From the NCBI GenBank assembly GCA_947034885.2, contig OX344749.2:26055501-26119500 (forward strand): DNA of 64,000 bases, in the 5' to 3' direction. The position numbers and the translations under genes were made by a program. The notes beneath the pieces are model-generated. The model saw only the letters and a program-made list of their open reading frames with translations, had not been told where the DNA came from and made no database searches. This document shows, one piece after another, positions 1-50,383 of the stretch. The number at the start of each line of letters is the position of its first letter. Positions within the stretch are counted from its first letter, which is position 1. The DNA comes from Thuidium tamariscinum. Lineage: Eukaryota; Streptophyta; Bryopsida; Hypnales; Thuidiaceae.

Positions 1-600
1 GTGCCACCATGGCCACCAGAATCGAAGGCGCGGAACAAATCCTACAAGAAAGTTAGCTTGACATACCTGAAAGGATGAAGCTACAAGAGACGCACCACAA
101 CGCTGATTGCAACAACTCAAGAGCTGCAAATTACTCTAAGTTTGAGTGAAAAAAACAGGGATTGAGTCAAGTTGGTGAAGGGAAGAGAAGATGGATGGGA
201 GGGAGTGGGATCCGGTGAGATCATGGCGGAGTGATCTGAGTCGTTGCAGCGAGCAGCGCATCGGAGGCGCTGCAGCGGCTGCAGCGTCTCATCCACAGAA
301 TGGGTGCGTGTGGGAGGGGCCACTGACTGGATGGCGATATTCTAGATCGCCGTCAAGGGCCGCTCAGTTCCTGGCTGTGGAGTTCGAAGGGCGTCCTCAA
401 TGCACTCCAAAAGTTGCCCTGCCAGTGCAAAGTGCATTGGTATCTGTGATTTGTCAACACCACTATAATTTTTGCCTTGTAGAATGTGCAGCTGATTTTC
501 TTTGACCAACTGATGTAATTTGTGTTTTCTTGTCCCTATTCAAAGTACTTTTGAATGTACTTTTAACAATAAAAATTACAAGTACTAATTGCACAACAAT
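1..600. other. GC-richer block at left edge, nature unknown
   Basis: The first ~420 bases are clearly less AT-rich than the rest, with CpG dinucleotides and repeated CTGCAG/GCAGCG words. An open frame exists on each strand (191-505 plus; 117-323 minus). The minus-strand one resembles a pyrimidine-rich leader with short coding potential, but I recognise no protein. It could be the 5' end of a neighbouring minus-strand gene, a transposon end or a gene fragment. Positions 600-919 are plain AT-rich DNA. Confidence 0.25.
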
Positions 601-919
601 GAGAAGTTTGAGTTGTATTTGTTGAGGCAAATTTTAGAGCACATGGAGGATGATTGTAGGAATCATTTCACTATCATCCCAACACTACAATCACTCACCT
701 TTCTTTTCCATTTGTAGATGTAGCTCTTGTAGCCTAGTCTTAATGCATCTCTAAAGAACATTTCTAGTGGTCTACTAGGAGTTTATATAAGTTCCTATTA
801 TCATCATTAAAATTTATAATTGAGCATAAGTATTATATTATTAAAAAATTATTATTACTTCTTACTAATAGATTAAAGAGGATTTTAATGCCCTTAGCAT
901 GCATTTTCTAAACATTGTA

Positions 920-2210
920 TGTCACACCCCTATCTCTAAGGGTTGCCCAAAGTGCCTTAGTGAGCAAGGGGGACCTTGGGGGGACCTCCCAAGCCTTGCA
1001 ATAGACTAAGATGGGAAGAATGAGAGACTCCAAATCAAATAGGGTGCAATAGCACCCTAGATATAATGAATTTGGGCATGTGTGATACATGTTTGAAAAG
1101 CCCTTGAGTAGACACTTCCAACCGTCCAAAGAATGGGTGATTTGGACTTGGGAGCTAGAAGTTATGGTCGTTCAAAGTTGACTATGTCCCAAGACATATG
1201 AGGGCTAGGTGTGAGGGGTTCTCAATGAATCTCACAAGGACGTATGGCATGTATCATATCATTAGAAAGCTACAAACACAAGTAACTTAGAATGAAAAGA
1301 ATTACGAGGTTTCAAGTTATGAGCTTAAAGTTATGGCCAAAAAATGAGCCATGGTGAAGGCATGATACCTCTCCTGGTTGTCCCGAATCTTTGGAGGGTC
1401 ATATTTTTGTGAGGGCTTGTCCAAATGGGACGAGTGAAGAATCCATCGGCATCTACTTGTTGCTTAGATGTCCAAAATGGGATCGCATGTGAGATTTGTA
1501 GCTCTGAGAGAAAAGTTACGCCGTTTGGAAGTTTGGGAGTCCAAATAGTGAGGTAATTTGATGTTTTGAGTTGAAAATGGGTGGTCTTCCAAAACCCAAA
1601 GGGTGTTTGAGGTGTTCCTTCACCATACAAGGGGGGAACCCAAAACCATAGAGAGTAATATAGGAAGGGTTGGTCTTTCTCTTCTCTCCTTCTTGGAGCC
1701 TTGGTAAGTGTTAGTGACTTAAGGTTGGTGATGCAACTTTACCACCACTCCAAGGCACCATGGGACATTTATTTAGTGTAGGTGTCCAATTGCATCGGTT
1801 GGGTGGAGTTCTATTCCTTGCTAAGCCTTCCTCATGGTGTCATGAGTTTGTAATGAGTCCCAATTAGCATTGAAAGGAAAGTAGCAAATGCCAAAAGGGC
1901 TAGTATGGAGTGGAGTGATACTCAAGGGGCAGTTAGGACTATAGTGTGTAGTGCTGTTATAAATCTTTGTACATTATGGTGGAAGTTCTGCCCCCATGTC
2001 ACCAAATGATGTGCTCGGTGTCACAAAGGAAGTGTGTACTAGTAGTCTCAATGACTAAGACTTAATAGAGTGAGTTGGAAATACAGACTAATGCTATGTA
2101 TACTTGGCTTATGTAGTGTTAGGCAGTTGGTGATCCAAGTGATGCTGTAAGCGGGTTGTAGTGAACCATTGAGTAGTTTGGTACTGTAAGGTGTCAGTTG
2201 GATCACAACA
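920..2210. mobile_element. Solo LTR (1291 bp) with 5-bp target duplication
   Basis: Begins TGTCACACCCC and ends ATCACAACA, the TG...CA ends of an LTR. It is flanked directly by TTGTA at 915-919 and 2211-2215. Composition is less AT-rich than its surroundings. No internal retrotransposon genes or second LTR are nearby, so this fits an LTR left after recombination between the two LTRs. Superfamily (Gypsy or Copia) cannot be told from the LTR. Confidence 0.66.
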
Positions 2211-15600: not shown

Positions 15601-18600
15601 AGAAGATATAAATTTGATAAAAATAAATAAATAATTAAAAGTGTTCCCAAATGTTAAGAACTTAGAATTAGTCTCAATCAAAAACTTGGAAATAAGTTAC
15701 GATGAGGTAGTTAATGGTAGAAGCTTGTAGAACAAGTTAAGTAGAATTTGTAGGTGTCTCACACTCAGGAAAAGATTGAAAAGTGTGGAAGTTATAGAAG
15801 GATGAGGTCTTAGGCTAGATTTGGATGAAAAGTTAGACAAATTAGTCAATCCAAACCAAACTTAGGTTCTACATAGAGGTGAATATTTATAATTCTCATT
15901 CAAAAATTTTAGTCATTTTGGATTAAAAAACTAGTAGGAATCTGCAAATGAAATTTTGTTAACCTTATTAAGGGCAAAACTTCATCCACCTATAACTTAG
16001 GCTAGGAAAATTGATTTAGATTGAATTTTGTATTTTTTAAAAAGGACAAAAAACTATCTACAAGATGGTGATCTTAATTTTTGTCTAACTTCTTTCATGC
16101 AAAAAACCACAGTAGATTATTATATTTTATTAAAACCTATAATGTATATAATATACCCATGGTTTTAGTCATTTTTTGCAACTTTGAGTAAACTTAAGCA
16201 CATAGAAAGATCCATTTCTTAGAATACACTATGAACCAACGCCTAAACCCTCATTAGCAAAACAACACCTAATTGAACAAAAAATTTGGTTGTATTAAAC
16301 TATTTACTATAGGTGGGTAAGTAATTGCTTACAATCCTGTACAAATTTTGAGTCTCAATTATTGAATTTTTTACACTGCTACAAAATTGCTCTTTATAGG
16401 CCTATCTTGTTTAGGCTTTATAAGAAACTGTTAGTAACAGGGCTTTTTTTTCTGGCGAAATTTCGCCAGTTTGTCAGAATTCTGACCACTATTGGTTAGT
16501 CCCTCCACAATCTGGCCACTGCAGTGAGGCCAGCAGAGGGGACACTGGTCCAAAAAAAAAGCCCTGGTTAGTAAACATGGCTCTTAACCCATTAAGGACC
16601 AAGTCGATGACTAGTTGATGACTCTAGGTGAAAATGACAGGTTTTCATTAGTAGTCACTTCAGCTGCTAATGAAAACATGTCATTTTCAACCAAATATTC
16701 ATTTGCAGTCATCAACCTCGTCCTTAATAGGTTAAATTTCAAATTCATCATCTATTAGTCAGCAATTCTCAATATGATAATAAAACAAGTCTTGACTTTA
16801 TGACCTATTAACCTCACTTTATTACAAAGACACAAAATGGGGCTAAGCAATGACCGTATGACCCACATTGTTCACAACAATAAAATTTATAAAGGAACGA
16901 AAAGTCACAAGCTACAATACACAAGTCTTCAAAGCTTCTTCTATTCAAATTTTTACTGTTGAGTTAAACTTTGAATTAGTGCAATCATTGCTCTAAGAGT
17001 CCAAATGAAATGAATGATAACTTTTTGAAAAGTTAATGTAATCTTCTATTTATTCTTTAAATTTCAAATAATTTTAATATTTTTTTCAATTTTTATAACC
17101 TCCCAAAATTTTGGTCTTTAGAATTGAGGACAATAGACACTCTATTTAACTTGTCACTCACAAACCACTCATATAAATTCCAAATAAGACAAATGATAGC
17201 TTGAAATAAAAGCTAAAAATATTTTTTACACTCTTTCAATATTTCATTGCAAACAAAAAATTTGTCAAAAATGTGCCCTAATCCTTCAAGAATTATATAT
17301 ATGTTATAATAATAAGAATTGCACTAAATTTTCAAATTTTTCATTTTTAATGGTTGGTCAAAGTCTCAACCCTTTCTCAAAGGAGTAACAAACTTTGAGT
17401 TAGCACAACTCTTGAATGCCAAATATAATTCAATCAAGTAGAATTTCTTTTAAAGTACAACACCATGATACACAATTTCTCAAATTTTCATTATAAATTT
17501 CTATATACATAAAAATATATCTCTTTTTAGATGTTTGGTTCATTCCAAACAACAATGACACTATTAGAAAATCATAGCTAAAACAACAAAAAATCAAGTG
17601 ATTTTTGTTGTTTAGAGCACTGGAATGACTATTTTCATTGATTTTTACACTTTTTGTAAATATCAACAAAAAGCGACCAACTTTTTGTTGATTTGAATAG
17701 TGCTGTAACCAAATCAACAAACTCTTGTTCAATTCAACCTTTTTTGGAATCTTTTTGGAATCTTTTTGGAATCTTTTTAGAATCTTTTGGAATCTTTAAA
17801 ATCTTTAAGTTCAACTTATTACTTATTATAAGGTTTTGAAAGAATCTGGATTTTTTTGATGCTTCTACTATTATATAAGACAAAATTGGCACATTGATGT
17901 CAAGTAATTAATTAACCCTTAAGGCCTTGAGGCATAATTTCAATATGTTTTCTACTTTTGGATAGCTAGGCCATTTATAATATAATATTTGTTGAATATG
18001 ATTCTTGAAAATTCTTGCTAACAATGTGTTTTAGTATTGACTTAAAGCCTAAAAAATTTCAAACTAATCCAAATTGCGATTAAAAGTTATATTATAAAAG
18101 GTCATTTTTTGAGAATGGGCAGTTTAGACAATGATGGCAAATAGATTTAATTGGTTTGAAATTCTTTTTACACACTTTCAATTACATTGTTAATAAAATC
18201 TCTATTGTTAAAAAATATATAAGTATACAATTATTCTTTAAATTCTAATGTATTTTATACTCATTTTTAACAATGTTGAATATAAAAAGATGAAGATTAG
18301 CAATGGACATTCTTGCATAAAATCTTAAATAGAAAAATTTGAGTCATTCGTTTTTGAAATTGGACTTTTGATGCTAAAATTACATTTCAAAAAACACTTT
18401 AAAAAATATATGTACTATCAAAAGTAGTAACTTGATAACTTTTACTTTAACTTCAAAATATCAAATTTTTTGTTGAGGAATGAAAACGCCACAATTTCAA
18501 TTCTAAGTGTAATGATATTTTTTTAAACTTCATCTTTTAAAATTTAGTGTTTTTCAATTCAGCAGACTTTGGGGGTCATTTTGGTATAGTAGAATAGCCT

Positions 18601-21600
18601 TATTCAAAAAACTTTGAACTAAAAAAAGTTGTCAAATGAAGCTAACTTTACTTCTAAAAATCGGTTTGTGATTTGAAGCCTCCAATAAAAAGACATGGGC
18701 AAAAATCAGAGGATGTTTGAAAATGTCAAAAAAAATGTTTCTCAAACATCCTCTCTGATTTTTGCCCATAACTTTTGATTGGAGGCTTCAAATCACAAAC
18801 AGATTTTTGGAGGTGAAATTTAGCTTCATTTGAAAACTTTTCTTACTTTAAGGCTTTTGTAAAAAGTTATTCTACTATGCCAAAACAGACTCCAAAGTCT
18901 ACTGAATTGAAAAGTACCAAAGTATAAACGGATAAGTAGGAAAAAATTCCTTCTCTAAACATGTAAATTCATTGTTGGTGTATTGGTTGGGTCCTTAGGA
19001 TGTTAAGTATGAGGTCATAGGTTCAAATCTGGTTGGTGACAAGTGTTAGGCCATATCACCATGGACTACCCTAGATTTTTGGACAGTAAAAAAATTGGTT
19101 TCTTATTGCCCTTTAATTATGGGCTATAGAAAAAAATTTGATCTTATTAAAAAAAATATGACCAAAACAATAGATTTCACTTGAATTTTGGCCAAAATGG
19201 TTTCTTATTGCCCTTTAATTATGGGCTATAGAAAAAAATTTGATCTTATTAAAAAAAATATGACCAAAACAATAGATTTCACTTGAATTTTGGCCAAAAT
19301 GGTTTCTTATTGCCCTTTAATTATGGGCTATAGAAAAAAATTTGATCTTATTAAAAAAAATATGACCAAAACAATAGATTTCACTTGAATTTTGGCCAAA
19401 ACAACACATCCAAAACAACATACATGATCAACAGATTTCAATTGAAATTTTGTTGTTTTGGTCACAAAATTTCTAGTAATGCATGTGAGAAGGAAGTAGA
19501 AGAATCCCTTCTTTATCCTCCACCTTATATTCAACTCCAATTATACAAGGAAATGAACTTTAGCCTATAATTTGTCAATAAGGCTACCTCAACACCCATT
19601 GATCATCAATTTTGACCCCACCATTAACTTCCTATTCAACCTTTGCAGGCTTAATGCCCCAAAGTTCAATTAGAAGGTAAACTATCTCCATTTTCTCTTC
19701 CTAGAACTTCAACACATAAGATAATTTCTTATAACACTACCAAAACATAAAATCAAAATAATAAGGACCTAATATGACTAATAGACTTAAAAAATAGAGT
19801 TTCAAGGTGAACATCACTTTGTCCTAAAAAATTTGAAGATGTATTTAATAGTAGCAACAATATAATTTGCACAATTAGCTTTGATTAAAAAATTTAGCAA
19901 GCCTTCCAATCAATGTTGATGGCTACAGCTTCCTTCAATGAGCCTAACTATACAATAATTTTTCTCTTTATTAAAACCCTCAAAACACCCTTTAAATGTT
20001 ATTTTTCCACTATCGAGCTCAGTACATCTAACCTACAACAAAATCACCAATGTTTGAGTGTTACTTTCACATTACAAGAGAAATGGGCCCTAATCTATAG
20101 AAATTTTGACTAAACAGTGTCTAAAATGACAGCTACATGTCCAAAATGACAGTTACAACTTGTGAAATTTTATTTTTTGTCAATGCAGTCAATATTGCAA
20201 TGTTTGTCAAATTCTTCTCAATTTCTCAATCAATTTTGACAAACAAGGTTAATGTCTTCCTTGAAATCCAACAAATTTTTGTATACAATTTTTATTTTAG
20301 ATACAAAATGATGTAGCTATCATTTACTAACTCTATAAGGAATTATACCTCATTGCAATCTTTAACCATTCACTATCAACACCTTAACATTATTTGTCTT
20401 TAAGGGAAAGAAGCTCCCTCTATATATGTGGAGTGGTAGGGGGTCGACCAACCCATATGGGATATATAAATTCTTAAAGCTGTGAGAGCTCATAGTTAAG
20501 TTGAAAACTCGAAATTTTGTATTAAAATCAAGATTTTAGACCTCATTTAAGCATAGTAAAATATATTTTTTCAAAAATATCTGAACTAAGACTAGTTAAA
20601 ATATGAATTGGAGTTTCATTTCCAAAAATCCGTTTGACATTTCAAGTTTTCAATCAAAAGCTATGAACATATTTCAAAGAGGAAGTTTCAAAAAATATAA
20701 CAAGAACAATTTCAAACACCTCTTTGAAATGTCATAACTTTTGATTGAAAACTTGAAATGTCAAAAGAATTTTTGGATGCAAAACTTGAGTTGATTTTCT
20801 AAGTGAGGTTAATTCAAGTTTTTATGAAAAAACACATTCTTTTATGCCTAAGTGAGGTCTAAAGCCCTATTTTCAACACAATTCCTATTTCTAACTTAAT
20901 GTGTTAACCCCTAAACGCCCAAGGGGGGGTATGGCCTGAGAAGTGGCTTAAGATTGCCTTTTCCTTGTAAGAGAGCCCAAAAAATTTTAAACATTTTTTT
21001 CAAAAATACAACCGTTGGATCTTCTATACATTGTACTTCTCATCATTCCCTGAAAATTTCAGATGATTTGACCATATGGATCTTCTGCAAAGTCATTTTG
21101 AAGTTTTATTTTGGCCCATTTTCTTGCAATTCAATGATGACCACCTTGCACTCCAGGATCAATAACTTCTACAATTTTTTTCAATTGCTAGTATTTTTGG
21201 ACTGACACTTAATGCATGAAGTCATGAATGTCTACACATCTTATAGAAAGCAGTCCATTGCATTTACAATTTTACATGGGGCTTGCATAGCCAAAGCCCC
21301 AGATTGCTCAATGCAAATTCACTAGTTCATTTTCAAAATCAGCCCCTAACTCCAATATTGGGCCAAGCTTGAATCTAGCTTGCTACTCTCACTTGGAGAG
21401 GCTTGTACCAACATCCCCCCACACATCTGAAGCTTCTCCTTCACTCCTCCCAACCTCACCTCACACACTCCCCCAACTACGCACTGCCAACCCTACCATC
21501 TGCTGCTCATGAGAAGCTCACCAAGCCATTTTCAAAATAGAAACAGACCATTCAAAAAAACTACTGCCCCTTCCTTGTTTCCCCTTTCTTGCGGCTCCTC

Positions 21601-24600
21601 CCTAGCCACTTTCCAAAACTTGTGCCCCCCTCCAAAGAACTGCATGCAATAGTCCTCATGTTATTTTCTATGAACCTTCTACTGTAGCATAGTATTAGGC
21701 TGGAAGATTACAAAAAAACTTGTAAAAAGAGTGTAAAAAGGCCTTAAAAAACCCCTAGCAAGAGCAATATGAAAAATGCCAACAAAAAAATGAGTAGAAT
21801 AAGGAAATTCAAATAGAATGAACTCACCTAGAATGTGCCGGTAGGGTGGTGCATTCTCATGTAGCACCCACGGGTGTAGCACATCCATTGAAAAGAGTAT
21901 AGTGCACAAAAAATATTAGTTCTTTTCTTACATACAACGCATCGACGACGCAATCGACTTCTTTGAAGGCAATGAATTTGGGGCATATCCTCATGTAATA
22001 ATGAAATGGTTGCTTTTTGTCCTGCCTAAGTCTTCGTCAATGCCTTGCACACTATTGCAACTATGAAGTTGAAATGTGTAAGACACTCTTTTTCCCGACC
22101 TTTTTCCCTCAAAATCTCCTTGTGGATAATCCACATGTTTACAACACTTGTGGCAATGAGGAAGTAAAAAAGACGGTGCCACCATTTATGGGACCTCACT
22201 TGGCAAGAATACAAGACACAAAATTGGTCTGCCACATCAACCCCTTGCATGAAAATAGTGTATTCAAGATGAATTGGGGATGTCTTGATTTTTTGAATTT
22301 TTCCACCTACTCAGTATGGAACTTCAACCACTTCACATGGAAAAGATAGGGGCAATGCACTACACTAAAAATGGTAAATAGTGTTGGTTGATAAATAGTG
22401 TTGGACCTTTTTTTACCTCTAACACTATTTTCCAAGTCATGTGTAAATAGTGTTGGCTATTAACTTATGTCGTCAAAATCTATCCCTTCCCTGCAAAACT
22501 GCATTTGGGGCCTCCCACAAATAAAATTTGGTCCTTCCTTACAGAACTGCGTTTTTGGCCTCCCATAATTAAATTTGGTCCTTCCTTAAAAGACTACATT
22601 TTTGGCCTTTTAGAATAAAAATCTGGCCCTTCCTTGGGAAACTATGTTTTAAGCTTTTTCTTTGCAAATCTGCGTTTTTGGCTCCTTGTTTGCAATCTGA
22701 ATTTTTAGCTCCTTACCTATAAAAGTCCATTTTTGGTTTGCAACTTATACATACACTATGAAAAATTTCAGCATTTCAGCATTTTATTGTCTATTTCAGC
22801 ATTTCAGCATTCCAGCATTTCAGTATTTATTTTAGCATTTCAGTCCAGCAGTCTAGCAATCCAGCAATCCAACATTTCAGTCTAGAAATTCAGCAAGTTA
22901 GCATTTCAGTCTAACACTAAATACACTCTTTGTCAGACTGCTGAAATGACCATAAAGCTGAAATAGTGTTAGAATGGGTTAATAATGATCTAACACTAAC
23001 CTTGCAAATCACAATTAGTGTTAGCTCGGCTAATTAGTGTTGCCAACACTATTTACCATTTTTAGTGTAGTGGATAATAGAAGCACCGGTTTCTTATACA
23101 TCCACATGATGCCACATATCTTCTTAGAGTCACAGATTGCCCACTCTAAACTTCCTTGTGTTGACTTCTTGAATGTTTTTTGGTCCTTCATAAAATCCGG
23201 AAATCCTATATGGTTGCTTCAAAGTGTGCTCGTGGCATATTTACCCCTTTGTTCCAAATCACAAAATAACTCTTCACTTGTAAAGAAATTGTCCATCACT
23301 ACTACATGTCTTTGACCTTCCAACCCTATAAGCAGTGCCTCAACTACCCTTTAGCCCATGTTTGGTTCTCTTTTCTTAGATTTAGGGGCCCCCATGTTTT
23401 TGATTGATGTTCCACAATAAACATCAAAATTACTAACAAAAGAGTTATAGAATCCGCGAGGCACCAAATCTTGATCCCCACTTCTTGGGCTTCTTGGGCA
23501 TGTATTGTTGTACGGGGCAATATATCCCTTTATATTGAACCATCATCTCATCGATGGTGATTTTCTCTCCATTATTCTACAAGGCCTTGCAATGGTCATG
23601 CAATTCATCCAACAACCACCTCACTTTATTGACTTTGTCATAGGTCGGAGATTTACGGTCCACATGAATCGAAGAGGGGTTCGTGATGTGAATGCACTTT
23701 GATAACAATAAGAATCTACTTCGTGATAGAAGTTGAGATATAATAGGGCAATGAAGAAATGGCTCGGACTTCGACCAATATATGCGTATGTTAGGAAGTT
23801 TCTTCAATCCCATGTATAAAGAAATAGCAAAAAACACCTTCAATTCACCAACTTCCATCGATTTCCATGTAGGGTCACCATGAGTGTATATTCCATAATC
23901 ATTGGGGCCCACCGCATTTTCAATCCTACGTTTCACTATTTTCAATTCCTCGGTTGCATATCTATTTGTTTTCGCACATATTCGTCTCAACGTTTGAATT
24001 GACCAAAATAGGCCAAATAATTGAAGAAGTGAAGCGATCCAATCCCACTTTTGGGTCAAACTAGGAGATGGACCAAGAAAAGGGTTTTTTGGTGGGCTAA
24101 AAGTCATGTACCTCTTGTTCCATGCGGCCATGGCATAGTCCTCTCTAATGTTCTCAATTCCTTTTGCTCCAAATGGGAAACTCCTACCATGACGTCTACC
24201 GTGCCCTCTGCTTCTACGGTTGAGACCTGCCACGTTCACTATAGCAAGGTCCCCAACAACTCCCCTTCCTGCCGCAAGATCTTCAACATCGCCCCTCCCT
24301 GCCGCAAGCCCAATGTTCACTGACCGCATTCTCCGCTTTACACCATGTCCACTTTTGGCTTCCATTCTCCCTTTGTCGGGATTACCTTCTCTCCTGAGTC
24401 CCAACCTCCTCCACTGCTTGATTATTTTTTGTACATTGGCGACCAAGGCCTCCGGACTCTCTTGTTGCTGCTCTCATATGTGGTCGAAACAGTGCTTGTA
24501 AGGGGAGGGAGTTTGTACCAGCATCCTCGGTGAAGTTCGTAGAGGAAGGACTGTAGGAGGTAGAGGGTGCATAGGAGGTATCCGCTAAGTTCTAGTAATC

Positions 24601-27600
24601 ATCATCATCATCACCTTCTTCTTCGTCGTCAAAGTCTTCAGAGTCTTGGCTGTGGTCACTTTCACTTGACAAGAACTCATCGCTCTCTTCACTGTCACAA
24701 GACGATCCCCTGCAACCTTCACAGTCCTTGTTTTTACTTTCTAAATTACAAATGGCTTCTTCGTCACACAATATGTTGTGCACATTGGATTTTTTCATCG
24801 CAATTGTGGTTTTATTTTTAAGAACAACAAAGTACATTTCCTCCTTTGTCACCTCATGAAGGTACGAGTACGTAGCAAGTCCTAGACTGAAGTTGTTGTA
24901 ATCCTCATCATCTTCGTTGTTGTTGCATTTGTTCTCGTCATGAAGGCAAGAATGTGGTATTTGCAATGGTATTGGAAACGACAACAATGCTCTGTCAACC
25001 TTATCCTCCATTGCTTCTTGTAAACTTGCACAGGCTCCAAGTTGCTTAGAGTTTGTCATCCCGTCAATTCAAAGCATTGATCTACCACTTTGAAGTGGTA
25101 GCGTAACAACTTCGGGACTTGCAGTGGGTTGCCACTTCCTCATGGGTACCAAAGTCAGGGGGTCCGTTGATTACCTCTTCGCGTGGGCACTTGGAGCCTA
25201 CACCGATTTGCAAGGGTGGAGTGAATTGCTTCAAGTAATGAGGCAAAACCATACCTTGAACTTCAGTGTAATGTAGAAGTAGTTGGGGGGAGAAACATAC
25301 CTGATCCGTTGTTGGGAGCTTGTACGTTGTTTGCGGCTCCTTTGTTCCCCGTCTTGATTGATTCATCGCTATTGATGCTCCATTGGTCTGTTTCAATATA
25401 TTCGCAATTTAGGAAATATTGATTAGGCATTTATCAGAATAAGATAAAGTAGGGGCAAAAATTTGTTGAGCTATGAACTTGTGGTTGCGTAGAAGGGGGC
25501 GTCGTGATTGCTTGCTATAGCTGGATCAAGTTTAGGGTTTTTGCCCCTTTTGCCCACACTCCTTTGCCGTCTTACATTGCCAATCCAGGTTAGTATCCCC
25601 TAGCACTATCGCTGAATTTGGAGAAGAAACAGTTTCAGTGACGGCCGAACCTGTCTGTGGGTTGGTCATCACGTTTTTTATTTCAACCGCTTCTTCAGCC
25701 AATGTTAGTTTCTTGTAATTTTCTATGTCATTTTTGCTTGCAGTGAAGGTGTTAGGTTCACGAATGAGGAATTCAAGAAAGAGCTCGGAATGAGAGGAAG
25801 AAAAATAGGGTGTAGAATCTTACCGTACTAGGGGCTTTGTTTTTTCTTTTGCCTTATTTGATGATTTCAACTTGTCCACTCTATTTGCGCTGTTGTTGTG
25901 TCTTGGGCTACAAGATCTGAAGTCACTGCACTCCTTTGTTGACATTATTTCCTTCGATTTCTACTGAACTGGTGTCGACCAAACTTGCTTCCGCCATTGC
26001 TAAGGCGTTTGTAATGACAGGCGCTCCTTTTGCCGTGCTTGATTTTTTTGATGTGTATTGTGTTTTCTTTGCTTGCAATGAAGGTTTAAGGTTTAGGAAA
26101 TTCAATTCATGAGGGAGCAAGGAATGACAAAAAAAAATAGGATGTCAAATTTAACCTATACTAGGGACTTCGTTCTTCTTTTTTCCTCCTAGCAAGTTGG
26201 TAATTTCAACTTGGCCACTCTTTTTCTATTGTTGCTATGTTTCATGATGCAGGATTGACGCCGCTCTACTCTTGTGCTGACGTAGTTTCCTTCGCTTGCA
26301 ATGTTGTTGGTGTCGATTGGTCCTACTCTAGCTGTTCTAAGGACGTTTGTGGTGTGAACCGCTCCTTCAACCATGCTTAATTTCTTACTTTGTATTGTGT
26401 TGTAATTGCCTACAACAAGGTTTTAGATTCATGAAACCAAAATAGTTGAGAGAGCAAGGAATGAAAAACTCCCAAAAATTGGGTGTAGAATCTTACATGT
26501 ATCGTCGTTGGGAGGACTTCATTGTTGTTTGCTCTTCTCAATAGCTTCTTGGATTCGATTTGTTCGCGGTCACTACATTGTTGTTGTGTCTCGGAATGCA
26601 GTAGTTGTTGTCGATGTAGTCTTGTATTCACGTTCTTTTCTTCGCTGGAGAGGTTGATGACATCATTGGTTGCATCAAGAAAAATCACAAGTTGGAGCTG
26701 CTTATACTCCTCATCGCTGAACCCAAAACCATCTCCTTCAAGGCGTCATGAAGGACCCCATTCTAGAATAGCAGTAGCATTGCGGTAGTAAAGTTACTGA
26801 TAGTTCTTGTTGGTTGGATGCTTGGGAAGTATCCTACTCTTAGTAAATCTTGGTTTGGAAGCTAAAAATCATTTGTCCATGTAGAGAAGAAACAACTCTA
26901 CTTGAGCTTGTAGGGCACCATGGTGATCAGTAGCCCACTAGCAAATGACTTCAGCAACTACAGTAAGAGCAAGAGGAATGGGGAAAGATGGAAAGGAATC
27001 CATATTGAAAGGTTGGTTCTGTTGAATGTGTAGTGGCCATGTGATTTGATTTGTTATCAACCCTTTATTATCTTCTACATGAATTGAATGAAAAAGTGCA
27101 TTGATTTTTGTAGATTCTTTTCTTATGTGGTGTAGGTTGTGAAGGAAGCCTTGTCAATGAAAATCACTACTTCAAGCTTGGGAATTGTAGACATTTGATT
27201 GATACCCTTAGTTGTAGCATCTTAGCAATGAATGCAGAGAAAATGATTACATACTTGAATGCAAAATGCTTTCAATTATGCTTATAGATTTGGATATCTT
27301 GTGAGCTCTGAACTTAGATTCAATGAGAATATGAGAGTGAGAATGTTTAACTGGTTATTGAAGGGGAAACATCTTTTCAGATAATTTAGAATATTTTTAG
27401 TTAGTATAGTATTTTAAAGTATTGCAATTCCAATTTTGTTAGTTATGGTGGCAAATTTTGGTATCTCACAAGTTGGGAATTTGATTTGGGACGGATTGTT
27501 TTGAATTGTATAGTTGAAGGCTCCTTTCAGCTGAACCCTACACCCAACGACCTTAACTGACTCTGTATTTTTTTGGTTGATTTTAGTCTGCCATATATCT

Positions 27601-30600
27601 GTTGAACCTGCCAACTCTACTACCTTAGAAGTTATTTCTAGTCAAAGTCTGTGAAACATGAGTACTCAGATCGGGCCCTAGTCCTTTTGAAATGGACATG
27701 CCCTGCCGAAAAAAATGGACAGCAACCTCTTTTTTTCCAGCACCGTGTGGCTAGATTGCACCATTTCAAATTAAATGTCTTTTTTTTGCCATAAAGTTTC
27801 TAGTTCTCTTTAAAATATGGATGAAGTTGCCAAATTTGGATGAAGAAGTATATGAATATGACAAAAAATTGTTTTTAAGTCCAAAAGATGGATGAATGTA
27901 AAAATACAATGCTTCACCAAATTTGAAGTGATTGCCATCTTGGCACTTTCTCAAAAAGTAAAAAAAAAGGGCTGATGGGAACTCATTCAAAATTGCACGT
28001 GGCAAGTTATCACTGGTTTTTTATCACGACCATCAAAATTTTGAAGCTTCAAACTGTACCTTCAATTTTCACAGATTTAAATGAAGGGCATTCTAAGCAT
28101 TTTTTTTCATTAGTTTTACATCATAAAGTATAGTAATTCTTTCCAAGAACCTACCAAAAAATTTTGGTGCAAATTTTTTTAGTTTATAGAGCTCTAGCAG
28201 CCTAAACAACTAGGGTAGCGACCACAAAATGGTCACTCAAGCGTTTAGGGGTTAAGTTAAAAATAGGAATTGTGTTGAAAGTAGGACTTTAGACCTCATT
28301 TAGGCATAGAAGAATGTGTTTTTTCAAGAAAACTTGAACTAACCTCACTTAGAAAATCAACTCAAGTTTTTCATTCAAAAATTCTTTTGACATTTCAAGT
28401 TTCCAATCAAAAGTTATGAAATTTCAAAGAGGTGTTTGAAATTGTTCTTGTTATATTTTTTGAAACTTCCTCTTCGAAATTTGTCCATAACTTTTGATTG
28501 GAAACTTGAAATGTCAAACGAATTTTTGGGATTGAAACTCCAATTCATATTTTAACTAGTCTTAGTTCAAATGTTTTTGAAAAAATACATTTTACTATGC
28601 TTAAATGAGGTCTGAAATGTTGGTTTTAATACAAAATTTTGAGTTTTCAACTTAACTATGAGCTCTCACAACTTTGAGAATTTATATATCCCATATGGAT
28701 TGCTCGACCTCCTACCTCCGTATGTGTATATAAAGAGCTTTACTTCTCCATTCATTTTACAAAATACAAATGATTCATAGAATAAAACAATTAAGTGAAT
28801 AAATTCATTCCATGATCTTAATTTGTTTTGGTCAACATTCTTGAAAGTTGATAAAAAAAACTTTAAATTTTAACCATCCAAAAGCATTTCATCTAAAAAT
28901 TTGTCATTTTGTAATTCATCTAAAAAAATTTCATCTAATTCTTTTTCTAGCCATTATTTCAACTATTTTATTAAATCTTTAGAAAATAATTTTTTGGAAT
29001 AAGTGACGTGGAAAAAAAATCCATGGTGGCAATGAAAAAAATCCACCGTAGCAAAGGAGTGAGAGGAAGACTTTTTGACGTGTATCTTTGTCCAAACTGA
29101 CAACCGAATTGACAGAATTCTGTCAAAAAAGTGTCCGAAACAAGTACTCCTAATCTACAACAGAGCTGACGGAATTCTATCAAAATTATTGTCAAATAAG
29201 ACGAAGTTTCCCTTATAGTGTTAAGATTCTCATGTCATCTTTATTCCACACAAGGTTACATTGGTAGATGAGAAGGTCTAGCTTTATCCCACAGATATTC
29301 ATGCATTAGTGGCAAAAGAGGTTGATCTTGGTAGTTGCAATAGAGAAAACATCCAAAATTGGTCTTTTAAAACTCAACAACAACATGATATTAAAAATTC
29401 AAAATATCACTTCAAATTAATGAAGCTATGAAGTGGTTCTCTTTTCTTAATAAATGGCCAGTGCCTTTGTAAGAAGGTGCCACCTTGAAGCCATTTAAAT
29501 GATGTCATCTTCCTTTCTATTATTTAATATTATTTAATATTATTATTATCATTATTATCATCATCATCATCATCGTCAAAATTCAAAATATTGTTACATA
29601 TTGTACACATGTATAATGCAACAATGTGCTTGCCATGGGGCTCTCTTTTTGGCCTAGCTTATAAACTTCCAAGTTAGACTCCCTTGACATACAAACAAGG
29701 AGATGCTCTAACCAACCTAATGAAGTTCTAATCTCAATTATTAGAAAAGTTTATCATAGGTTGATGAAAGACTCCAATGGGTGGTTTTTAAGATGTGTGT
29801 ATAAGGCAATTGGCATATAAACATCAAAACTTTGGAGTGCAAAAAATTTAACTTCAAAGGGTTCAAAGCTTAAAATTTTTAATGTTTTAGTGAAAAGAAA
29901 CAATTTTCTTTCTTTGAATTCTAATATCTTGCAATGTAAATGGTCAAAGTTTTCAAGCTATAATATGTGTATTGAATAGACATTTTGAAGCTTCAAGCAA
30001 AACTTTAAAATCATAAACTACTCATCACAATTGTTGAATTTATACCTTATACAACAATAGACAATAAGTTGATTCATATCCAATATTATAGAGGCAATTC
30101 TTAATAAATTTGATTCAATTAATATTGAATATATATAAAATAAGCAAGATTTTATAAGTCATTTCCATTTTTCTAATACAATATTTTTAACTAATGAAAA
30201 AATATTTTTTTCACATAAAATACTATTAATTTTATTTAAACTTTTATTGAATTACACATAGTAAAATTTGTGAGTACAAAATAACAATGTGAATTTAACA
30301 ACAATGTATTCTAATTCTAAATCATATTAATTTTTGAATTTTTTTTTGGAAACATATATTTTTAAAATTTTTACAAATATAAATAAATGAATAATTTTTT
30401 ATGTATGACATAATAATAAGTAGGAAATTTAGATTGAAATCATACAAAGGTTGTAGTAAACCTTTGTTTATGCTGCTTCTTTAAAATTCAAAGATATTAA
30501 TTTCTTTTTCCAGATTTGTAATTCATCAATTATTTCAACTTTTTAATATTTAAATGGAAATACTTCTGCAGGTGATAATAAGTTGGAAATGAATCGTAGG

Positions 30601-37500: not shown

Positions 37501-40500
37501 TTTTAAAAATTCCATAATTTATTTAAGATTACATAACTTCTACTTATGCAATTAAAACAAGCAAGAAGGGAGAAAAACCTAATTACCATTATTCAAGCCA
37601 ACAATCACTCTAGATTCATATATTTCACAATTCTTCAAGGTATATTGAATACCTTGTATAGGAATTTTAAAACTTACTATAGCAGAATTTCATCATGCAA
37701 ATTTTTGGAAACTATTCAATTTTTAAATAGTTTAATTGTGCAATGTTGTAGGCACCTTTTCTAAAATCATGTATATTCAAAGGCATACTTAGTTGACTTG
37801 TAGCATACAATGGAAAATAAATGTGACTTCATCCCAATTTGATAGCAAGGAAGGAATGTGAACTTAGTAGAGTGCATTAGTAAAGGTGGGGTCAAATAAA
37901 TTTACAAACAAATGGCCATATTTAGAGACAAATGCATTGATATTCAATAGCTACATACATTGAGTCATTGACCTTTTACACTAATTCTACAATTCTCTTT
38001 CAATATTTCTAGCACTAAACCTTTCCAACTTCTATTTATAACACCTCAATAAACATAATTATTCAACATAATTGGGCTTGTTAGATATATAATTTTTGTG
38101 CTTTCCTATTTCATTCAACCATTACTTACAAGTAGACCATTTGCTATAAACTATTTTTGAAAATAAATCAACCAACATAACAAGCTTGGCCCTAAAGAGT
38201 TAAAATCCACTACTAAATTTTTATAAGAAGATCTTTAAAGAATACAAAATTTAGTTTTGCAATATGCACATATTATTAATTTTTTAAAATAAAATCAAGT
38301 GTGAATATTTTTAGCAATTAATATCTAAATGATGATTTTAATGATTAGTCAAATGATCATTTAATCATTTATAATCTATAAAATATGATTATAGAAGAAG
38401 CTAGTTGATTGCAAAATCAAGACATACATTACAATAAAGATCAATGTTGGAAAGGGATTTTTTTGCTAATCCAAATGATACCAATTCAAAGATAATTAAA
38501 AAGAATTAAAAAAAACATTTCCTTCTCTTTTAAGGAAAAAACACGTCAAAATTATAGAGGCATTTTTTTACTTGTGGTATTATAAATAACCATATATGGG
38601 TGATTGCAAGAAACACTTCATGTTTTTGGTTCAAAAACGCGATTGCTAGCTACATGATTGGCAATATATGCGTAATATTTGCAATACAACATGTCAACAC
38701 TACACCTGCAAATTTGAACTCTTGATTTTAGGTACTTGCACATCTAGATTGTTAGTCAATACTATGAAGTACTATAGACTACTATAAAGTACTAATGTGG
38801 CCATTGGTAGCAAAAAATAGAAAAAAGGACTTGTGGACCTTTTTGTTTTTAGTAATTCAAATAAAATTCAAAAAATTATTTAAAAAAAATTATTTTTCTA
38901 AACAAGATTGTGCTCACATTGCAATTAAAAAGTTTCTCTAAGAAATTTTTTCCCTCTTTATAGCCTTTGGGCAAAAGAAGGTCATATTGACCCCATCTGC
39001 GTAATAAATATGTTGCTATTTTCATAAAAACTCATCATAAATCCTTGTAACGTTAAGAGACTTCCAACTTGTCCAATTTATGGCTTCAAATTTGGATTAT
39101 GGGTCAAAAATAGGACTAAACTCCCCCCAAATGGCCAAGGTAGACAATAGACACCTAATTGGGGGTAGGTTAAAAATAGTAAACTTATTTTTTTGTTTTT
39201 AAAAAATTACCCAATATCTAAAACTTTTGTGTGCACCTTCATTCCAAATTTAAGACCAACAAACAAAAGGTGCAAAAATTATGAGCAAAAAACTACCTGT
39301 TAGAGGTCAAGGGGATAAAAAAAGGACAAGTGTTTTTTGCAATCACCCATATATATATAACCTATTCAACATCAAATAATATTCATCAAAATTACATCAC
39401 ATGGTGTATCCTAAGACATTAAGTTTATAATATATCCTATAATTGTAAGGATTATTTTTTCTTAATTTTTAATCTTAAAAACTTAAAGACAAATACAGTA
39501 GAATGAAATGTCCTTTGAAATCAAAATTAGAAAGTTAAAACTTCAAAATATCTAAAAATATGAACTACACGTGTTTTTTGGGAAAAGTTCAATGTTACAA
39601 AAATGATTTGAGTTGCAATTAAATCAATTTAAGTTATATATTTTATGTGAAATTAGTTTTTATGACAAAATATTTTATACTTCTAAGTTTTTAATTCTCT
39701 TCAATTTTATTTTTATATTTTTAAGCCTTCAAAATCATTATGAATACAAGATTTTTGGTTAAATTTTCAAGAGTCATGTCTTGTACTAAGTTTTTAAATT
39801 TTGTGAAGACAAAATAATTTTTTTTTTTTACATAATCTTAGTATATGATGAATTCTCAACCAAGAACTTGTATTTGACTTTTAAGACATGAAATTTGTAT
39901 AAAAGACTCTCTAATAGAAAAATATGCTAGTAATTATATTTTTAGGATCTTTCTAAATATCATTTAATATCATTTAAAGAATTTTTTTGAAAAAGATCCA
40001 TTACTGAGCATCAAATGCAAACAAACAATAAGGTGGTAGTTTTCTTGTGTTTGCACTTTAATCATCAAATTACTTTCTAATATTTTAATTAAAAAATCAC
40101 CTATATTTATGTTTCTATGCAACATTGAAAAAATATTGAGACTATAATTTTGAAACATCTAAAAATAAAATGATTTTCTTTGTAATTAGTTGTGGATCAA
40201 GATATAGACTTGATTAATTGCTTTCAAGAACGTCATTGGTGTGTGGGATTGCATTCTTTTATTAGACAATGCACTAAGCTATGCCGAAATCAAGAAACAA
40301 TGGATGATCTTAAGAAGTAATCTTTTTACTCTTGATGGAAATGAGTGCAATAAAATAGGTGTTAGTTATTCAGGCTTTCGAAATCAACCTGGACAAAAAT
40401 GCACTGAACCTCAAAATACTTGCTTGGCTTCACAGATTAAAGATTATTGGGATGTAAGTATTTTTCAATTAAATTTGTATTTTTATATACAATATTTTTC

Positions 40501-41918
40501 TAATTCTAAGAAAATGATGCTTTTACAATAGTAATTTTAATGATTATTACAGATATGAATGTATATATATAGAGAGAGAATTTTTAAGGATTTAAAGGTT
40601 TTTTCTTACAAGAGTTTTTAATACCTATAATGTTCATTTCTAGTATTGAAGAATACATTACTTTCAAACAATCATTTAAGAAAAAAATTGAAAATGACAA
40701 GTGAGAAATGTTATTTTATTTCAAAATATCTAGCATTTACATTTTTAACATTGAAATTAGTTTGTATTCTTGCAAACCAAGTTTTATATATTCTTGATGA
40801 GGGTTGCTATTATGTGAGCATAAAAGTGTGAGCCTATGAGCCTAGAAGACTATACATCTATGATATAAGTGTCTATACTATAGTAACCTTTTATGTTAAT
40901 AGTGTATATATGCTATAAGCACCTATATTATAGGTGTTTATGTTATAAACACCTTCAAATGGTTGCATATACATACTTATCTATATGCTCAAGGCTCACA
41001 TGCTCACACTTTCATGCTCACATACTAGCACCGTTGTATTCTTGATGATGTATACTAGTTTAACTTCTAAAACATAAGGTATGGTCAATTTTTTTTTAAA
41101 AAGAAGATGTATTAAAAAGTGCAATTTTGAATGATAATTTAGTAGTGTGTCTAGTGATTTGCATCAAAAGTTGTAATTAGATAGTTTGATTTCTATTGCA
41201 TCAACAATAATTTACCATTTAATTTTGAAAAATTATTTGAAGCATATTTCTACTTACTGTACTTAGTAGTATTCAATATTCATTTTCAATATTTTCAATA
41301 TTTTTTTTGGAATGTATGTTTAAAATTTAAAATATGAATATTAGAAATATCATTATCATATTTCTAAAGCAAGAGTATTTTCAAAGGTCATTTTTGGTCC
41401 TATTGAACTGAATAAGGTAGTTGTTTAAGTAGACAAACTTATATACATCCTATCTAAGAATGTTTTTCAATCTTCATTTTTAAATCTATTGTGAACAAGA
41501 ACTTAAGAACTAATACACGTTTTTAATAAATGGAATGATAGAAGAAACAAGTCTTTGGATATGTGGAATATGCTAAAATACTTAATCATCCAAAATTAAA
41601 TTACATGTCTCTAAGAAATTAGAATATCATTAGTTTGACTTATGAAGATTCAATATTGTAGTAGATAATATCTCATCTTTCCAATCATACTCTTTGAATG
41701 ATATATGCCCACATCAATTTACCAATAAATTTTAAATTACTATGGTTTATAATATTAATTTTCAATGCTCTTTTTGTTTGAAAATAATGATGTGTTATTG
41801 AATATTTATGGATTTAGAAAAAATACCAAGAAATTTTATCTTCAATGCAATTAAGTATATCAAAGAGAGCATTTTACTACTACTAATAAATACTCTTAAA
41901 TAAAATTAGAATCTCTCC

Positions 41919-47900: not shown

Positions 47901-50383
47901 AATTGTAAACTTACGATATAAGTTAAAGCATTTGCATTTTGAAGGAGAAACAATTGACAGTAGCACCAGGAGCTATTGTCCCACTTGTGTTTCAACTTGA
48001 AACAACTGATTTTAATGCAGATCAGCGAAGTTGCACAGGTTTGTAAAAATTATTGGACCCACCGACAAATGTTTGGCTTGAACAAAAATGAAGAAAATAT
48101 CTGACATTGCCAATGACTAATCTTAAATCCTTAGTCTTCAATTTTCCCATTATGATTTGTTTCTTTTAAACTCTTTGATTTATACACAATTATAGTTCAT
48201 TTTACTTTTTTTTGACACACTAATTAACTTATCATACACTTGTGTTAAGCTGACAGTGGACCTGCTGGATTCTTTTGCAAATATCATTGGCAATTCAAGA
48301 TGTGATTTTCAGACATCAGCCACAGATTTCCAAGCAGGAGCTCAGGTCTTTCCAACACTCCTTTGCCATAACATTATTTAGCAATGATAACTAGGATTCT
48401 TTGGGGTTTTCATATTTTCTTATTGGCAAGTGAAAGGAGGTTCCAATGCACCAAAGAACACAACATTTAGATGATGTATGCAAAAGTTATGAAGGAACAA
48501 AGTTTTGGTTCTAAAACCATTTTTTCCATGAAAGTACATTTAATTGACTTTGGAGATACACATAGTGAAGATGGTGGTTTAGGGTCAATGGTGCATTTTG
48601 GGGGGTCCACTTTAGCAATGGTAGCTAGGAGTCTTTGGGATTCATGCAACTTAAAAAAAGAATTTCACATTTTACTACAATATTGAGAAAGAAATTGGTA
48701 AAGAAAACCATTGAAAAGAATATTGACAATGCAAAATGCTCATAACATTGTTTACCAACAAAGCAAGGTCCTTCATGCATCCTTAAAAAAGTGTCTTGTA
48801 TAGTGAATAAAACTATTACTTATAGGTTTCTTTAGCCAACCTCAATCTTTGAACTAATTGAAAGCCCATTTTTGGCATCAAGGGAGGTACAATACCTTTC
48901 TAGCATATGGAGGACCATATGTGTTATGCTACTTCATTACACATATTTTTAGAGAAATTTGGCAATTAGGTAATTGTAAAAAGAATTTACCAATATTGTG
49001 TTGGATAATATAGTAATTGAGTACTATAAGTTTTTCAATTAAAAAGATATATATATAATTTGTATTTTTAGAAAATGTTTTAATCATAGGAGTTTACAAT
49101 GACCCTTTTTGATGAAATGATTGGTTATACAAAATCAGCTACAATTATTCTTTCAAACATTTGACAGTTAGATTTTTACTCTTTGTTTTTTTAATGTATT
49201 TTCAAATTTTTAGAGTCTAATTCTCTTTAATTATTGATATGATAGACGTGAACAATGTAAAATTTTTTTAATACTTATTCTTAGTGCCAATGCTTTTCTT
49301 TTTTCATTGATTCCAACCGTTGGCTCTATAATGCCAATTGCCAAATGATTTCAAAATTTCACACGCATATACAAAAATAAATAAATAAATATATATATAT
49401 ATATATATATATTTATTTATTTATTTTTGTATATGCGTGTGAAATTTTGAAATCATTTGGTGCCCTTAGCAGTTAGCATCCCAAAAAATCATAATTGCTG
49501 CCTAGTTGCATTTTCTTAATGACCAACTATGATCCCAAAAGAAAAGTCACACTCTTGTCTCTCCCTCTCCCTCCCCTCCCTTGGCACATAAAAAAGAAAA
49601 TTGTTGATTAATTTTGGAAAAAAAACAAGAATCCTCTTCCCTTGCTATTGATCAAAATACAATATGTACACATAAACATACAAATATAGATATGTGCATA
49701 CATATAAATATACATACAACTACAACTATAGATATCAAGATAGAATATGGCTATGGCTATCAAAATACAACACAAATACAAAAGCATTTACGGTCCATAT
49801 TGTTTGATCTTGTGATTTTGTTTTGAAACTACATGAGGAGATTGGAACCTCTAAGGAATTAAATTTTGATTTTCTTTTGTAAATTGGTTGTGGTTCCAAG
49901 TGCATTGTTTCACTATGCACTCACAATTGGTAGTAGCTACCAATTTTGATTTTTTGAGTTACAAATAAGGTGTAAAATATTTAATTACTATCAATTTCCT
50001 ATAATATGTAGCAAGGTTTAAGTCTACACTATACTTGCTAAAAAAACTAGATACCTTTTCAAATTGTAATCAAGCATTGAATGCTCCAAAGTCCTTGGCA
50101 CTCTCTTAACAATGGGCTTTGTTGAGTGACATCTATTACCTCTTCCCTAGTAGTGAAGGTTGCTATTATGTGAACTTAGGAACATGAGCCTATGAGCGTA
50201 AAAGAGACGGTTGCTATTATATAAGCTTAGAAGTAAAAATCCATGAGCCTAGAAGCTTATACACCTATGATATAAGTGCCTATATTATAGTAACCTTCTA
50301 TGATAATAATGCATACATACTATAAGTACCTATAGTATAGGTGTTTATGTTATAAACACCTTCAATGGTTGCATGATATTTAC

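Follow-up and report, generated by a model that had tools for sequence, protein, structure and literature searches.

In the moss Thuidium tamariscinum, a 64,000-nucleotide stretch of contig C1 (C1:26055501–26119500, in a genome of 363 Mb and 19 contigs; hereafter the window) carries a piggyBac-type element at the centre of an ~1-kb palindrome. This palindrome forms the inner part of a non-autonomous CACTA-type element of ~1.8 kb, since it lies between CACTA-type ends and three of five copies are flanked by 3-bp target duplications. What is seen is a nesting of two known kinds of element, with piggyBac inserted in a CACTA-type element, here termed the host, that has an unusually large internal palindrome. 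Many of the host copies read elsewhere in the genome stop at the palindrome centre.

The host element

The host spans positions 20070–29220 of the window, with a left end reading CATTACAAGAGAAATGGGCCC and a right end, on the minus strand, reading CACTATAAGGGAAACT; without piggyBac its length is 1,803 bp. The ends were located by fuzzy matching together with the edge of homology among genomic copies. A preliminary description of this DNA had overlooked that this homology extends outward past both palindrome arms and breaks off sharply at 20070 and 29220. An A-type outer flank (20070–20410, plus strand) belongs to the left half only and aligned with 18 other A-type loci, most of which reach a common edge, while a B-type outer flank (28741–29220, minus strand) belongs to the right half only and aligned with 10 other B-type loci. 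Both edges of the host are CACTA-type ends beginning CACTACAAGGGAAA. Ends starting in CACTA were read in 18 A-type and 11 B-type cases, some of them decayed, the window's left end included. Genome-wide, the A-end had 235 matches at up to three mismatches against 0 in a reversed control. Five two-armed copies had both ends read, and three of these (L024, L033 and L046) are flanked by matching 3-bp duplications, namely TAA, TTA and AAA.

In its CACTACAAGGGAAA ends and in these duplications the host resembles small non-autonomous members of the CACTA (En/Spm) group. It is unlike them in its interior, where an ~1-kb palindrome with nested imperfect palindromes gives it a more foldback-like character, and in that no transposase was seen in it. 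With foldback, or long-inverted-repeat, elements it shares long complementary arms that are predicted to form one hairpin. Nevertheless, these arms lie within the host, its outer flanks A and B are unlike each other, and the host does not have long inverted repeats as its ends in the manner of a foldback element.

The palindrome and its centre

The preliminary description had noted inverted flanks of ~490 bp outside the two TTAA sites, and these were recovered as arms of 489 nt that are 91% complementary. The left arm lies at 20411–20899 (plus strand) and the right arm, its inverted copy, at 28252–28740 (minus strand), with 7,352 nt between them; a gapped comparison of the two gave 90% identity across 508 columns. 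Each arm had further been described as itself an inverted repeat of ~340 bp. The inverted repeat is indeed present, but the length was an under-estimate, as each arm encloses an imperfect palindrome of ~400 bp (20496–20899 and 28251–28656, 72.5–73.1% in gapped comparison). Without gaps, the inner inverted repeat of each arm covers 149–150 nt at 75–78%, with 65–67 nt between its halves. The central spacer is TGTG (20900–20903, plus strand), which reads CACA in other copies. Removal of piggyBac leaves TTAA-TGTG-TTAA at the centre, just as described before; the joined flanks read CTAACTTAATGTGTTAAGTTAAAAATAGG and the centre AACTTAATGTGTTAAGTT.

A chance origin of the palindrome is excluded, because the arm is a member of a repeat family and because of the strength of its predicted fold. 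A 23-base arm-end pattern had 325 matches genome-wide at up to two mismatches, against 0 in the reversed control, and a natural empty copy of the palindrome is predicted to form a single long hairpin with a z-score of −58 (58 standard deviations under the average of 20 shuffles). In the window, the two arms group as sisters (support 97/94) and are therefore compatible with a single host copy. The same relation between the arms of one copy was seen in three of five two-armed copies (the window, L023 and L024; not L033 or L046), which points to exchange between the arms of one palindrome.

A related palindromic unit without piggyBac lies at 18493–18969, 1.4 kb to the left of the left arm; it is 77% self-complementary and 66–69% identical to the arms, and no CACTACAAGGGAAA-type end was found near it at up to two mismatches.

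The piggyBac element

The piggyBac-type element occupies 20908–28251 on the minus strand (7,344 bp). A TTAA target duplication adjoins each of its ends (20904–20907 and 28252–28255, plus strand), and its short terminal inverted repeats carry the 11-bp sequence CCCCTAAACGC at both ends. The transposase gene is disrupted; two separate pieces, both on the minus strand, pass the Pfam cut-off for DDE_Tnp_1_7, one at 23577–24473 (profile positions 4–120, E 5.4e-21) and the other at 22026–22310 (profile positions 293–349, E 4.5e-7). Between the two lies an insert (22355–23075) with 33-nt inverted ends, beginning CACTACACTAAAAATGG and matching at 97%. A high-copy repeat of ~250 bp is present at 27723–27978, with 39 other scored genomic matches at 84–94%, and a genome query with the right end of piggyBac was swamped by it. 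Upstream of the transposase pieces, 25671–26670 is a degenerate tandem duplication (61–65%).

The TTAA duplication, the ends starting in CCC and the transposase matching PF13843 are all features of the piggyBac superfamily, from which the window element departs in its 7.3-kb length, its disrupted transposase and its nested inserts. TTAA followed by the piggyBac end motif had 6,010 matches genome-wide at up to one mismatch, against 27 in the reversed control. On the assumption of two such ends per copy, the end motif would therefore be common to ~3,000 genomic copies, a figure that counts ends and not element sizes.

Empty palindromes and the order of insertion

Copies of the palindrome were read in two samples. 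For the first, the genome was searched with the left arm, and 40 of 2,122 first-look candidates were scored; by position these fell into 39 loci, namely the window, eight two-armed copies, two two-armed copies with partial loss of the centre, three with second-arm stubs (38, 42 and 104 bp) and 25 one-armed copies. For the second, 40 of 66 exact arm ends were read, the other 26 belonging to first-sample loci, to two facing pairs (C1:26051173 and C6:27247054) or to C10:13251241. These 40 comprised nine two-armed copies, 18 halves, 10 deletions starting at the centre, two partial second arms and one case on C6 involving piggyBac, after a script tally of 25, 6 and 9 had been regrouped using later matches within the element. 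One of the centre-starting deletions (L072, C1:24323043) rests on a 24-nt match only, and is also among the seven single-arm loci of the first sample that are known by position only. The centre region was thus read at 68 loci, 28 from the first sample and 40 from the second. Both samples favour copies with a complete first arm, and are uninformative on breaks inside that arm. The central 12-mer TTAATGTGTTAA was also tried as a marker and proved useless alone, with 109 matches against 312 in the reversed control.

A search for empty palindromes, which the preliminary description had recommended, found them at eight of the 39 first-sample loci and at nine of the 40 further centres, in support of insertion. 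Three other facing pairs of piggyBac ends, 5–11 kb apart and each assumed from this spacing to be a single element, have TTAA on both sides and no arm within ~600 bp. Empty palindromes and armless end pairs therefore support the view that the host copy was in place before piggyBac entered it. The other possibility raised at the outset was that a piggyBac unit has the arms as very long outer inverted repeats, which move with it, as their position directly outside both piggyBac ends might suggest. A piggyBac-type end nevertheless stands at the centre in only two of the 68 loci read (the window and C6:1241195), 66 being free of one; none of the three other long end pairs carries the arms; and the arms have a CACTA-type outer context of their own, being part of an element with its own ends. 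Taken together, these observations leave the outer-repeat explanation scarcely credible.

The nearest facing pair of arm ends listed, at C1:26051173–26051222 and ~4.3 kb to the left of the window, has its ends 4 nt apart and is an empty palindrome by pattern only. At L108 (C10:8440504), both the spacer and the second inner unit of the palindrome are apparently missing, and the TTAA of the first arm runs directly into the outer flank.

Position of the insertion

It had also been proposed that a hairpin or cruciform loop exposed single-stranded TTAA, which would be preferred by piggyBac, and so guided the insertion. The idea is made plausible by a published structure of the piggyBac strand-transfer complex in which the TTAA target is unpaired (PMC7351741). 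In the predicted fold of an empty copy, the 9-nt loop contains parts of both central TTAAs, and the centre-fixed deletions described below suggest that the palindrome folds. A second insertion at a palindrome centre exists at C6:1241195. For a TTAA in the A flank of the host, by comparison, no junction match with fewer than three mismatches was found (10 at three; reversed control 0).

These points are to be set against the small number of centre insertions. A pattern of arm, TTAA and piggyBac end had six matches genome-wide (reversed control 0), of which only the window's is real; on reading, the other five, with three mismatches each, showed no arm and only 18-nt matches of a size expected by chance. 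A pattern of arm, TTAA, any four bases, TTAA and piggyBac end had 48 matches against 34 in the reversed control, two being exact (the window and C6:1241195) and 46 having two or three mismatches. Only the two exact matches were read, so the two centre insertions are those found, and the junction patterns would miss insertions with other end variants. The second case is a separate piggyBac-type element of 655 bp (L110:912–1566); it occupies the centre of a B-type copy in which only ~6 nt of the second arm remain. From an estimated 3.4–4.1 million TTAA sites genome-wide and 325–450 central ones (our own estimate from the arm-end count), 0.24–0.79 centre insertions are expected by chance. There are two, against 325 arm ends and ~3,000 piggyBac copies; with the window set aside, the one observed has P 0.21–0.55. 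Targeting of the centre is therefore not shown, and we consider it unlikely. The central pair makes up two of the 22 TTAA sites in the host and two of the 13 in the palindrome.

We therefore hold it very probable that the CACTA-type host came first and that an ordinary nesting of piggyBac followed. A multi-copy, non-autonomous CACTA-type element, its ~1-kb palindrome holding a 4-nt spacer between two TTAAs, would have inserted at this locus, and the 7.3-kb piggyBac would then have entered one central TTAA by its normal TTAA-specific mechanism, duplicating it. The piggyBac element would afterwards have decayed and taken up further inserts. Its central position is most likely a matter of chance, aided by the TTAA content of the host. 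Several observations weigh against this account. The host ends in the window are without a clean 3-bp duplication (TCA or TTT against TTA), two of the five two-armed copies with both ends read (L023 and L029) are without matching triplets, and the insertion at C6:1241195 brings the centre insertions to two against the chance expectation (P of at least two, 0.02–0.19).

Half-elements ending at the palindrome centre

Eighteen of the 25 one-armed loci in the first sample were read, and every one spans from a CACTA end (12 A-type, six B-type) to the centre and then stops, at most ~10 nt from it. No second arm was found within 1.5 kb in any of the 18, nor within ~7.5 kb in the four that were followed further, so the notion that halves are palindromes split by larger insertions is unsupported. 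At L070 the centre reads TTAACCCTGG, a possible insert at TTAA; in the ~8.1 kb beyond it (L111), no second arm and no inverted copy of the end were present.

Among copies with an intact first arm, the next breakpoint is no more than ~12 nt from the centre in 28 of 30 for the second sample and in 18 of 21 for the first, the latter made up of the 18 halves that were read plus the three stubs. A uniform spread of breakpoints over the remaining ~960 nt would place ~1% of them near the centre. Past the TTAA of the first arm, 23 of 36 halves keep 3–8 nt, with spacer TGTG or CACA alike; bases were counted as kept by exact match to the expected centre (by eye for L026, L030, L031 and L035, where arm-end bases are changed), and the counts may run ~1 base long by chance.

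Long palindromes trouble library preparation and read trimming, and the palindrome or the half-elements might be misjoined or trimmed reads. The half-elements do end a few nucleotides from the centre, as a trimmed read would. Whole palindromes and two copies split by piggyBac are nevertheless present, loci L017–L069 contain no N, and the deletions that start at the centre rejoin at varied places inside the element. An assembly error is thus very improbable.

That halves transpose as separate units is not supported, although it keeps some probability. In seven of 18 halves the triplet to the left of CACTA is found again no more than 3 nt from the right border, a weak excess over the 3.7 averaged in shuffles (P 0.04); shifted to other places along the right flank, the test gives 0–6, and there is no clean 3-bp duplication. 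A far CACTA end was absent from 16 of the 18 in a search with 14 bases at up to three mismatches over 1.5 kb (7.4–7.5 kb for L028, L034, L036 and L042). In this search L030 had one site, with three mismatches, and L042 had two; L035 had a short motif and then the triplet, nothing more. At L042 (C5:8217150–8217645 and rightward) a CACTA end with one mismatch lies 141 bp past the centre and apparently belongs to another CACTA-like family, so that this locus is perhaps a chimeric element.

In a paralogous empty-site test of the halves, no match spanned the junction among the sequences compared. At L030, the repeat in the left flank reaches the CACTA end and is absent on the right side. Because it does not continue there, this one case suggests loss in place. 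The repeat at 1666–2203 of the window also occurs in L030 (72%).

Possible origin of the half-elements

Of the pathways considered, one through a hairpin-capped end would best fit the halves. The element would first be broken on one side and degraded, after which the surviving strand would fold back on itself to give a hairpin-capped end. Opening of this cap close to its tip would then leave an end to be joined either with other DNA or with what remains of the other half; the handful of bases retained beyond the centre would be compatible with an opening off the centre or with a short fill-in. We suggest, tentatively and with rather less than even confidence, that the palindrome folds in living cells and that its tip is a recurrent processing point, so that halves would come to predominate where one arm is intact, and that the tip would occasionally serve as a piggyBac target.

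A precedent is found in E. coli, where a hairpin-capped-end pathway has been argued for an interrupted 246-bp palindrome and replication of the cap gave inverted duplications (PMC3315005). The sequence of one-sided break, degradation and fold-back set out there would give loss ending at the centre, as here; that work concerned E. coli, whereas in the present case the pathway is inferred from standing eukaryotic copies. Alternatively, repair synthesis may stop as the new strand folds back at the centre. Such abortive gap repair has been invoked for plant elements and likewise produces deletion derivatives of DNA transposons, but the derivatives described in that source are internal deletions (PMC2213677), whereas most of those read here lack one end and share an endpoint at the palindrome centre. 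In literature searches limited to openly licensed papers, no report was found of a transposon family with copies ending at a palindrome centre, although no search for exactly that was made.

Other features of the window

The first 2 kb of the window (1–2203) has 43% G+C, compared to ~28% in the following 2 kb. At 19003–19401 there are tandem units ~102 bp apart, three of them at 99% and an older one at 79–86%; the units contain GGTTCAAATC, which we take to resemble a tRNA-type B box. Rfam and tRNA searches of the window gave no matches. The gamete fusion protein HAP2/GCS1 is represented by an exon at 40214–40528 (Pfam E 2e-19; PDB 7s0k, E 3.1e-13). A perfect palindrome of 120 bp is found at 49341–49460, with 60-nt arms at 100%, no spacer and an AT-repeat core. 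In 16 viral contigs obtained from two pattern scans, of 16 and 15 bases, the arms and piggyBac matched short stretches only, at E 0.019 or worse.

Implications

The nesting itself is ordinary, though it answers the question raised at the outset, and the centre-fixed deletions are the more interesting result. The family amounts to a natural experiment: arm ends of one ~1-kb palindrome occur by the hundred in a single genome, many of the copies read are cut at the centre, and some have apparently homogenised arms. Work on hairpin-capped ends has used engineered palindromes. With a transposon family in which many copies end at the palindrome centre, standing sequence would show where hairpin tips are opened in a eukaryote and in what way such ends are joined. 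Any preference of piggyBac for unpaired TTAA in vivo could be tested genome-wide in the same family.

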